A stretch of 64,000 nucleotides of DNA from Desulfomicrobium sp. ZS1 (GTDB lineage Bacteria; Desulfobacterota; Desulfovibrionia; Desulfovibrionales; Desulfomicrobiaceae): the NCBI RefSeq assembly GCF_024204645.1, contig NZ_CP100351.1, positions 1,860,001 to 1,924,000 on the forward strand, given 5' to 3'. How positions within the stretch are numbered: the first letter of the stretch is position 1; every line of letters starts with the position of its first letter. This document shows positions 36,930-38,259 of the stretch, piece after piece. Made by a program: the position numbers and the translations under genes. The notes under the pieces were generated by a model. The model had not been told where the DNA came from and made no database searches. It worked only from the letters and a program-made list of their open reading frames with translations.

Positions 36930-37006
36930 GCGCCCGTAGCTCAGTTGGATAGAGTGCCTGACTACGAATCAGTAGGTCGCATGTTCGAATCATGCCGGGC
37001 GCACCA
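36930..37006 (+). tRNA. tRNA-Arg (anticodon ACG)
   Basis: The 77 bases fold as a standard tRNA. Acceptor GCGCCCG pairs with CGGGCGC, followed by A and encoded CCA. The D arm has AGCTCAGTTGGATAGAGT. The anticodon arm CCTGA-CTACGAA-TCAGT places ACG in the loop. The T arm is GCATG-TTCGAAT-CATGC. It is complete and not interrupted. Confidence 0.98.
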
Positions 37007-37124: not shown

Positions 37125-37283
37125 CTATCTCAATTCGTTGATATCCACATGCTTCCCGCACGCAGGACAGCGCATCGGGGAACCGAAGCGAGCATTGATC
37201 CGGTACACGTGCAGAATTCCATTTTTCGTGATCACGTACGCCACCAGAACCGGATGTCCACATTCACAAAATCGCTGTTGCAT
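37125..37283 (-). CDS. Small zinc-ribbon protein (52 residues)
   Basis: A 52-codon frame starts at ATG 37283 after a perfect AGGAGG and stops at TAG 37127-37125. The product begins MQQRFCECGHPVLVAY and ends PMRCPACGKHVDINELR, with two cysteine pairs (CxC and CxxC) that can form a small zinc ribbon. It resembles the Com/zinc-ribbon class of tiny regulators, but the match is weak. Its upstream region contains the operator ATTAAC-N4-GTTAAT (37307-37322), identical in design to the one before the S24 repressor gene, so the repressor probably controls it. The function is unknown. Confidence 0.75.
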   Translation of the reverse strand: MQQRFCECGHPVLVAYVITKNGILHVYRINARFGSPMRCPACGKHVDINELR

Positions 37284-37306
37284 GGAATGCCTCCTCTTTA
37301 TTGAGA

Positions 37307-37322
37307 ATTAACTTATGTTAAT
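37307..37322. promoter_or_regulatory. Palindromic operator upstream of the zinc-ribbon gene
   Basis: ATTAAC-TTAT-GTTAAT, a perfect palindrome apart from the 4-base spacer, 23 bases upstream of the 37283 start. The same half-sites and spacer length occur at 37982-37997. Confidence 0.7.
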
Positions 37323-37342
37323 CAGCCCGACAAAAAAAATTC

Positions 37343-37972
37343 TTACGCGTAAGCCCGGCTGCTCCACAAAACACGGCCGATAACTCGAAGAGTATCAATC
37401 TCGTCGCCTTGAAGGGTGACGGGTGAATAACGCTGATTAGTGCTGAACAGAACTACCAGGCCAGGGCGGATCTGCACGCGTTTGACCTGGATGTTGTCCG
37501 CAAGCCCGACAACATAGAGATTATTGTCCGCAACCTGATCCTGGCTCTGGTCGATAAGAATGTTGTCGCCCGGTTCCAACTCCGGAGACATGCTGTCGCC
37601 AATGACTTCCATGGCGACCATGCGTCCGGGATTGCCCTTTTTGCTCAGCCAGGAGCGGTCAAAAGGCAGCTCGTCGACGATCATGTCGCTCAGCTCGAAC
37701 GAACCGCCTCCGGCGCAGGCCTTGGCGGCCACCTTGGGAACGAGCACGGTGCTGGCCTGCTCATTCTGATAAACCGGCCCCGAGCCCGTCTTCAACCAGA
37801 CCGGATTGACCCCGAACGCGGCAGCGATGCTCAGCCCCCAGGACTTCGGCACGCCCCTGCTTTTCGCCATGGTGATGGCGGCAGGCTCGATGCCAAGCAA
37901 TCCGGCCAGCTCTTTTTGGGTGGATATCCCGGTGGTCTTGGCCACCCTCTGGAAGAAGTCATCAAATTTCAT
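37343..37972 (-). CDS. S24-family repressor (CI/LexA-like, HTH plus self-cleaving peptidase)
   Basis: The 209-residue protein has an N-terminal helix-turn-helix (TQKELAGLLGIEPAAITMAKSRGV, as in phage CI repressors with the DDFFQRVAKTTG start) and a C-terminal S24 peptidase domain with the nucleophile Ser in GDSMSPELEPGD and the general-base Lys in IQVKRVQ. An Ala-Gly bond in KACAGGGSF is a possible self-cleavage site. Such repressors are cleaved when RecA is activated by DNA damage. The palindrome ATTAAC-AAAA-GTTAAT starts ten bases upstream of its start codon, which indicates self-repression. No phage structural gene is nearby, so this may be a domesticated repressor. Confidence 0.9.
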   Translation of the reverse strand: MKFDDFFQRVAKTTGISTQKELAGLLGIEPAAITMAKSRGVPKSWGLSIAAAFGVNPVWLKTGSGPVYQNEQASTVLVPKVAAKACAGGGSFELSDMIVDELPFDRSWLSKKGNPGRMVAMEVIGDSMSPELEPGDNILIDQSQDQVADNNLYVVGLADNIQVKRVQIRPGLVVLFSTNQRYSPVTLQGDEIDTLRVIGRVLWSSRAYA

Positions 37973-37981
37973 GTGCGGACA

Positions 37982-37997
37982 ATTAACAAAAGTTAAT
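37982..37997. promoter_or_regulatory. Palindromic operator upstream of the S24 repressor gene
   Basis: ATTAAC-AAAA-GTTAAT, matching 37307-37322 in both half-sites and spacing. Location just before the repressor start suggests autoregulation. Confidence 0.7.
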
Positions 37998-38085
37998 ATC
38001 TTGTCAAATCTTTTTATGCTGTGGCCTCAAAAAATGCGTCCTCCAGCACAGCAGAACAAAAATACTGCCCAAAACTCTGAACCAA

Positions 38086-38259
38086 GCGTTCCGGCTCGTC
38101 CCGGTCAAGGCTCGCCGACTGTCTGACTGAGCCTGGCATCGTTTGTTGATCCGTTGCCGGTCGCATTGCCCCGGCCTCCCGCGCCGCCGCAAAACGGATC
38201 AACTCTACGAGGCCCGCGAAGGAGTTTCGGCGGGCCTTGACCGGGACGAGCCGGAACGC
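38086..38259 (+). repeat. Structured dispersed repeat, copy A
   Basis: Outer arms 38086-38116 and 38229-38259 are near-perfect reverse complements over about 30 bases (GCGTTCCGGCTCGTCCCGG on the 5' side). Inside them lie the conserved strand GACTGTCTGACTGAGCCTGG (38117 onward), an inner stem GTTGATCCGTT (38145-38155) with AACGGATCAAC (38193-38203), and the second conserved strand GAGGCCCGCGAAGGAGTTTC (38209-38228). See copies at 46237, 46486 and 51215. It lies between the S24 repressor gene and the end of the chemoreceptor gene. I do not recognise the family. Confidence 0.85.

Follow-up and report, generated by a model that had tools for sequence, protein, structure and literature searches.

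A CI-type, probably self-cleaving repressor and a small predicted zinc-ribbon protein as a probable part of the DNA-damage response in Desulfovibrionales

Introduction

How bacteria without LexA respond to DNA damage is a question that, as far as the accessible portions of the published accounts go, has been answered so far for Streptococcaceae, Acinetobacter, and Bacteroidetes. A locus in Desulfomicrobium sp. ZS1 raises it again for the Desulfovibrionales. A repressor gene of the S24 class and a gene for a 52-residue protein lie there one after the other, each preceded by much the same palindrome; what would such a switch sense, and which genes would it govern? The locus was analyzed in a stretch of 64,000 nucleotides (the window; contig NZ_CP100351.1, positions 1,860,001 to 1,924,000) and followed into the 3,867,579-base genome that contains it (G000) and into a sample of 297 genomes of the order. 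Comparison of these sequences indicates that the two genes are probably part of the DNA-damage response. No publication on the pair was found in the open-access literature, subscription papers being mostly outside the scope of that search.

LexA in the order

Desulfovibrionales seem to be mostly without canonical LexA. The LexA model (TIGR00498) exceeded its cut-off in 11 of the 297 order genomes and in one of 16 Desulfomicrobium genomes. It also matched 9 of 14 control genomes, only 6 of them over the cut-off, so that a divergent LexA could be missed. G000 has no LexA over the cut-off, and the only matches there are a UmuD-like protein at 2740146 and the repressor described below. Possession of LexA shows no association with the repressor/small-gene pair, being found in 6 of 118 genomes with the pair and in 5 of 179 without it (Fisher p 0.35). 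The sporadic full-length LexA genes over the cut-off (G004:C14:29841-30434 and those of 10 other genomes) were perhaps acquired. A regulon survey that includes Desulfovibrionales does not mention LexA in the main text available (PMC5343134), and a paper on Desulfovibrio vulgaris notes the absence of SulA (PMC4672049).

The repressor

The larger gene (37343..37972, minus strand) encodes a 209-residue CI-type repressor with an N-terminal helix-turn-helix (PF07022, Phage_CI_repr) and a C-terminal S24 auto-peptidase domain (PF00717). Both matches pass their curated cut-offs, the S24 domain by a wide margin (65.1 bits against 23.3, E 6e-18) and the helix-turn-helix narrowly (23.8 bits against 22, E 5.8e-5), which bears out the S24 repressor proposed by the first-pass annotation. 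The predicted cleavage site, Ala87-Gly88, and the predicted catalytic residues, Ser127 and Lys164, are invariant in all 113 aligned orthologues; the one repressor of 114 left out of this alignment by a filter on Asn-Asn-Asn (G029) has the cleavage and catalytic residues when read by eye. The features of a CI-type S24 cleavable repressor, namely an S24 domain, a CI-type helix-turn-helix, an Ala-Gly site, and a Ser/Lys pair, are thus found together. Ten comparisons gave substitution counts of 230, 133, and 796 at codon positions 1, 2, and 3, rich in third-position changes, and the nearest solved relatives by sequence are UmuD chains.

Canonical LexA was considered for this protein and rejected. 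The TIGR00498 match reaches 24.9 bits against a cut-off of 110.95 and is confined to the S24 part, whereas the helix-turn-helix is that of Phage_CI_repr. The likeness to LexA lies in the S24 auto-peptidase, in the autoregulation proposed here, and in umuDC as a putative target in some lineages.

The small zinc-ribbon protein

The smaller gene (37125..37283, minus strand) encodes 52 residues with the family pattern MQxR[FY]CxCG....V.Y....CPxCG....I..L, preceded by an AGGAGG ribosome-binding site at 37290..37295 (minus strand). Against ten relatives the reading frame has accumulated 56, 21, and 144 substitutions at codon positions 1, 2, and 3, as a selected protein would. Across the 118 small proteins collected, ten positions never vary (Q2, R4, C6, C8, V14, both cysteines and the proline of CPxC, and an isoleucine and a leucine close to the C terminus), and M1 and G9 are kept in 117. 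The name zinc ribbon is given because of the CxC ... CPxC pattern, metal binding and fold being predictions.

No Pfam, NCBIfam, or PHROG model matched at a curated cut-off or a convincing E-value, and the weak profile resemblances, to RNA polymerase subunit P and similar ribbons, fall far below the curated cut-offs. PtrB of Pseudomonas aeruginosa is a 59-residue C4 zinc finger of the DksA/TraR type; the protein studied here differs in this respect, there being no such zinc finger among the Pfam matches of the window protein (E <= 1) or of 25 relatives (E <= 0.01), while one relative weakly matches the NCBIfam model yteA (E 0.0097). The family of the Mu Com zinc finger, which the protein may resemble, is likewise absent from the Pfam results for the window protein and its relatives. 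An AlphaFold2 model built from eight sequences reached a pLDDT of 69.5 and a pTM of 0.43, and a Foldseek search with this model had no hit at E <= 0.001 (best E 2.1). A sequence search of the PDB was uninformative, yielding a repetitive zinc-finger protein that was best by E-value, with no single stretch passing, and short CPxCG matches. Outside the order, eight genomes of two other families of the phylum encode a related CxCG...CPxCG ribbon that lacks the MQxR start (L186-L193). No repressor match lies within 1.5 kb of these eight genes, and the five loci read by eye have no telling neighborhood.

A two-gene unit across Desulfovibrionales

The zinc-ribbon gene was found in 118 of the 297 genomes and in 24 of the 55 genera of the order sample. 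The figure of 118 is a lower bound: a profile also recovered the small gene beside the repressor in three of four further genomes that the search with a single sequence had missed (G116, G236, and G244, and not G061). In 114 of the 118 the gene immediately upstream, 51 to 608 bp away and in the same orientation, is that of the repressor. The exceptions are G035, where the repressor is about 110 kb off; G188 and G289, where it is on other contigs; and G070, in which a search at E <= 1e-20 yielded none. Within the family of the window genome, the zinc-ribbon gene and a close repressor (E <= 1.7e-65) occur in one and the same set of 13 genomes out of 22; within Desulfomicrobium, 11 of 16 genomes have the pair. 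Repressor and zinc ribbon are a two-gene unit that recurs widely among Desulfovibrionales.

The first-pass annotation had also pointed to the neighboring tRNA-Arg gene, a tRNA-Arg(ACG) at 36930-37006 (plus strand; the only hit of an RNA family search), a point that needs correction. Of 11 Desulfomicrobium loci, nine have a tRNA-Arg gene close to the pair, six of them beyond the zinc ribbon and three beyond the repressor, and in the other two none was found; G018 alone among eight loci from other genera has tRNA genes in the vicinity. The adjacency is incidental or reflects a tRNA insertion hotspot. In one relative (G001, L020) the flank beyond the zinc-ribbon gene encodes, as read by eye, a product resembling a site-specific integrase; an intact tRNA-Arg is absent from that locus according to ARAGORN.

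Two operators in the window and the genome

The palindrome ATTAAC-N4-GTTAAT stands at both promoters, with no strand assigned. One copy, ATTAACAAAAGTTAAT, occupies 37982..37997 and ends 9 bp before the repressor ATG; the other, ATTAACTTATGTTAAT, occupies 37307..37322, 23 bp before the ATG of the zinc-ribbon gene. The first-pass annotation had placed both palindromes correctly, each just upstream of its gene, and had called them identical operators; half-sites and spacer length are indeed the same, while the four spacer bases differ. Each follows a -35-like hexamer. A probable -35 element of the repressor promoter, TTGACA, lies 4 bp before its operator (38002..38007, minus strand), and its TTGAC is kept in all 11 Desulfomicrobium promoters aligned. 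At the zinc-ribbon promoter a -35-like TTGTCG, suggested by the sequence and the genus alignment, lies 5 bp before the operator (37328..37333, minus strand). A generic promoter scan reported neither element.

Two exact matches occur in the window where 0.01 are expected, a number reached in none of 100 shuffles; at up to two mismatches the same two are the only matches, with 0.80 expected, and 22 of 100 shuffles reach two. A genome-wide motif search, which the first-pass annotation had set beforehand as a test, found the motif at two places in G000 at up to one mismatch, and these are the two promoters; the motif is accordingly not common away from regulatory positions. A reversed-pattern control also gave two places, and relaxing the match to two mismatches gives 42 places where the control gives 61, which is chance level. 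Since the raw genome-wide count is ordinary and equals its control, the weight rests on position and conservation. Besides the repressor, the small gene is the only gene in G000 with a good site, as its earlier description as sole local target had supposed. Further targets were sought there with the relaxed pattern TTWACN4GTWAA and rejected: it occurs at four places (control 13), two of them at the module, and the loci at 1064910 and 1929790 suggest none.

Two features of the repressor's upstream region may be recorded here. The nine bases between its operator and its ATG (37973-37981) hold no obvious ribosome-binding site, as is also the case at five of ten other Desulfomicrobium loci, so that the repressor may be translated from an mRNA with little or no leader. 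Further upstream lies a 33-nt inverted repeat (38086-38118 / 38227-38259, 97% complementary, with 108 nt between the arms), and a similar stretch is found at the same place in G006.

Operators in relatives and the recognition helix

Conservation and position can be followed across the genus. The 11 Desulfomicrobium genomes with the pair have a site at up to one mismatch in 22 of 22 promoter positions. Across all 16 genomes there are 33 such places against 32 for the reversed control, of which 22 are at the pair, one is at a decayed copy of it, and 10 are elsewhere. Exact sites number 17, with 16 at the pair and one at the decayed second copy in G001, and none occurs in the five genomes that lack the pair. 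In the promoter alignment TTGAC and the half-sites are fixed or nearly so while the flanks drift; G012 was excluded from the zinc-ribbon footprint on account of a long insertion, which also makes it a miss in the order-wide pattern scan, although its operator is present. The fit is poorer in the two more distant family members: G018 has operator variants of the TTTAC/GTAAA type, and in G016 the small gene is preceded by a near match while none was recognized at the repressor. From conservation and position, the operators of both promoters behave as sites of one regulator.

The order-wide scan used a pattern derived from the nearer families, skipped repressor promoters shorter than 60 bases, and took mononucleotide shuffles as its control; matches with two mismatches came out near chance. 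Exact or one-mismatch sites were found in family f1 at 12 of 13 promoters of either gene, and in family f4 at every promoter (6 of 6 for the small gene, 6 of 6 for the repressor). In the Desulfovibrionaceae-like family f5 the sites are weaker: 46 of 93 small-gene and 56 of 90 repressor promoters have an exact or one-mismatch site (10.9% and 13.7% in shuffles), and 17 of 93 and 10 of 90 have the exact pattern (0.6% and 1.2%). In genus g24 both promoters of a genome share the same 18-mer, TGTTCACTTTTATAAACA or its complement, at 18 of 18 bases. Taken genus by genus, the similarity of paired promoters is convincing for g24 and a few genomes alone, in a test made weak by the presence of the motif in rival promoters as well.

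The site also varies with the protein. Residue 30 of the repressor, which we take to be the start of the recognition helix, tracks the outer bases of the operator, and does so in both promoters separately. With Pro30, 22 of 27 sites are without an outer G:C pair and none of the 27 has both; with Arg30, 38 of 42 sites have both outer G:C pairs (TG..CA). The comparison draws on only 73 sites found in 226 promoter slices, and the rule follows clade boundaries (proline in g1, g5, and g7) and is broken by three sites in g22, g23, and g28.

The link to umuDC

Clustering of the flanking reading frames singled out umuD/umuC as the only telling neighbor common to several genera, the other clusters being lineage-specific, shared by two genera, or the small gene itself. 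In nine of the 118 genomes, from four families, umuD or umuC starts at most 250 bp after the zinc-ribbon gene: G011 (f1); G022, G035, G047, and G070 (f2); G032 (f3); and G033, G041, and G049 (f4). Six of these (G011, G022, G033, G041, G049, and G070) have a pattern-perfect operator before the zinc-ribbon gene, and G032, G035, and G047 do not. In the other 109 genomes no umuD/umuC appears in the downstream flank examined (about 1.5 kb, shorter at some contig ends). Two further cases come from single genomes. Besides an intact pair, G001 has a decayed copy directly before umuD and umuC (L196:9304-11541), with one exact and one two-mismatch operator, both genes of the copy being recognized by eye from short remnants. 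In G026 a umuDC locus unlinked to the pair carries TGTTTATATAGATAAACA 43 bp before its probable start; this is the only exact match of its pattern in that genome, where the pair's own sites are imperfect.

The main umuDC of Desulfomicrobium itself was tried as a target and rejected, because none of the seven loci examined has an operator within three mismatches; in this genus Pol V would therefore not be a target. Upstream of these genes (G000:C1 near 2740146, L055, and six relatives) lies a conserved stretch around CGTTGACGGAAGCCAAG that is unrelated to ATTAAC-N4-GTTAAT, at which another regulator may act.

A proposed switch and its alternatives

We consider it likely, though well short of certain, that the pair is an autoregulated DNA-damage switch in which the repressor governs its own gene and that of the zinc ribbon and, in some lineages, Pol V as well. 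Bound to ATTAAC-N4-GTTAAT between the -35 and the start region of both promoters, the repressor would keep its own gene and the zinc-ribbon gene off. RecA-coated single-stranded DNA would then stimulate self-cleavage at Ala87-Gly88 and release both genes, as the invariant residues and knowledge of the family suggest. The unchanging self-cleavage residues and the repeated association with umuDC make induction by DNA damage plausible. In lineages that have umuDC after the zinc-ribbon gene, or before umuDC an operator of its own as in G026, the switch would also govern the error-prone polymerase; in G000 the two genes would be its only targets with a good site. The zinc-ribbon protein would act in the same response, perhaps most readily as a modulating partner of the repressor, in the manner of DdrR with UmuDAb. 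A partner role may be tentatively preferred to that of an independent effector or a Pol V accessory, since the gene keeps to the repressor much more often than to umuDC and is the only other good-site target in G000.

The alternatives nearest to this switch concern the small protein. It could instead be an effector released by damage, such as a modulator of transcription or translation that acts independently of the repressor, as PtrB does on the type III system of Pseudomonas; the good site before its gene in G000, the faint profile likeness to ribbons such as RNA polymerase subunit P, and the precedent of PrtR-PtrB, in which an S24 repressor controls a small regulator (PMC6429228, in the portion accessible), all point that way. 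We find this rather doubtful, given that every profile resemblance is far below its cut-off and that the gene is nearly always beside the repressor and not beside any fixed target. An accessory role for the error-prone polymerase, with an ancestral zinc ribbon-umuD-umuC operon split in most lineages, would explain why the gene lies directly before umuD/umuC in nine genomes and in the decayed G001 copy, and why it stays with umuDC in G035, with the repressor 110 kb away, and with umuC in G070, which has no repressor at the threshold used; the 109 genomes with no umuD/umuC in the downstream flank make it unlikely. Another concerns the signal. RecA-independent LexA-like regulators such as IrvR exist, according to the accessible part of PMC7101444, and the operator-free umuDC of Desulfomicrobium would suit a repressor that answers something other than RecA-stimulated damage. 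The invariant cleavage site and Ser/Lys pair and the repeated association with umuDC in several families leave this a still slimmer prospect than the accessory role.

Origin and binding raise two further alternatives, both less probable again. The pair could be a relic of prophage immunity, a repressor and a lytic-side gene left after loss of the phage. In the phage collection, the repressors most similar to this one beyond the order are c/CI repressors of phages (best in Desulfovibrio phage ProddE, 33.9% identity), and phages commonly integrate at tRNA genes, one of which lies beside the locus. Yet purifying selection has kept the pair in 24 of 55 genera, a search of 50,697 phage records (IMG/VR being outside the scope) gave no match to the zinc-ribbon protein at E <= 0.1, clustering shows no shared phage neighbors, and the phage collection contains no homologous pair; in the stretch read, no phage genes adjoin the pair, as had been noted at the outset. 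A relic is for these reasons very improbable. Least credible of all is the reading in which some unrelated regulator occupies the palindromes, or in which these are repeats due to chance or structure: counts taken alone, in G000 and in the genus, would allow it, being around those of the reversed control, but 16 of the 17 exact genus sites are in the two promoters, the half-sites stay while the flanks drift, and the site varies with the recognition helix of the repressor.

To return to the autoregulated damage switch, a bolder version of it would have LexA replaced order-wide, with a phage-derived cleavable repressor and a dedicated zinc-ribbon co-regulator running the damage response. The umuDC genes of an ancestral operon would have been lost repeatedly, and the Desulfomicrobium circuit would have shrunk to the repressor and its partner, with the zinc-ribbon protein as output. 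We offer this version tentatively, as a possibility that the odds do not favor.

Relation to known systems

CI-type cleavable repressors and pairs of a repressor with a small protein are already known, and the zinc-ribbon partner is the new element. The likenesses and differences drawn below from published systems reflect the portions of the cited papers that were accessible. In Bacteroidetes a CI-type S24 protein acts as SOS regulator (Sanchez-Osuna et al. 2021, PMC8565304). This non-canonical LexA, like the repressor described here, joins an S24 domain to a CI-type rather than LexA-type N-terminal domain in a lineage without canonical LexA; the Desulfovibrionales repressor fits that definition by its S24 domain, its CI-type N terminus, and its occurrence in a lineage mostly without LexA over the cut-off. 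Error-prone polymerases are core targets in Bacteroidetes (PMC8565304); here umuDC is linked to the pair in some lineages and lacks the operator at the main Desulfomicrobium loci. The systems differ in phylum, in the regulon of only two genes in G000, and in that the accessible text of PMC8565304 mentions no obligate small zinc-ribbon partner. HdiR of Lactococcus, cited in the same paper, is LexA-like and controls both its own gene and a umuC homologue in a lineage that lacks LexA; compared by description, it differs in that no zinc-ribbon gene is mentioned for it there.

UmuDAb with its corepressor DdrR is the nearest two-component analogue. Acinetobacter is LexA-less and has an S24-type repressor with a small neighboring protein (PMC11332147, PMC7273328). 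As proposed here, that repressor controls both genes, its operator overlaps promoter elements, and umuDC belongs to the regulon. The corresponding layout is found in Desulfovibrionales, where the small gene adjoins the repressor in 114 of 118 genomes and operators stand at both promoters. The arrangement is nevertheless different: a single operator serves the divergent genes ddrR and umuDAb, whereas the repressor and zinc-ribbon genes are co-directional with one operator each. UmuDAb also descends from UmuD, while the Desulfomicrobium repressor has a CI-type helix-turn-helix. DdrR, compared by description, is presented as unique to Acinetobacter, with no zinc ribbon mentioned in the accessible text (PMC11332147, PMC7273328).

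A further parallel comes from Pseudomonas aeruginosa, in which PrtR cleavage triggered by RecA releases PtrB; in PrtR-PtrB/PrtN a RecA-cleavable repressor holds off a very small regulator (PMC6429228), as the repressor would in the model proposed here. The pyocin cluster concerned is phage-derived, whereas the Desulfovibrionales pair is without phage neighbors.

If the proposed switch is real, sulfate reducers across an entire order, gut and corrosion-related groups among them, would gain a regulator that can be tested, along with a conserved zinc-ribbon protein whose visible links are this repressor and Pol V only. With two good sites in G000, the regulon would be unusually small. Other lineages may hold more. 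With the f5/f6 pattern, 12 genomes gave 36 places, 12 of them at the pair, and of 14 others inspected only the G026 site adjoins umuDC. In two genomes of one genus (G130 and G159; L237 and L238), the operator-like sequences TGTTTATGTTTATAAACA and TGTTTATAAATATAAACA lie about 320 bp before a reading frame that resembles, by eye, an NAD-dependent DNA ligase, which is a possible extra target.
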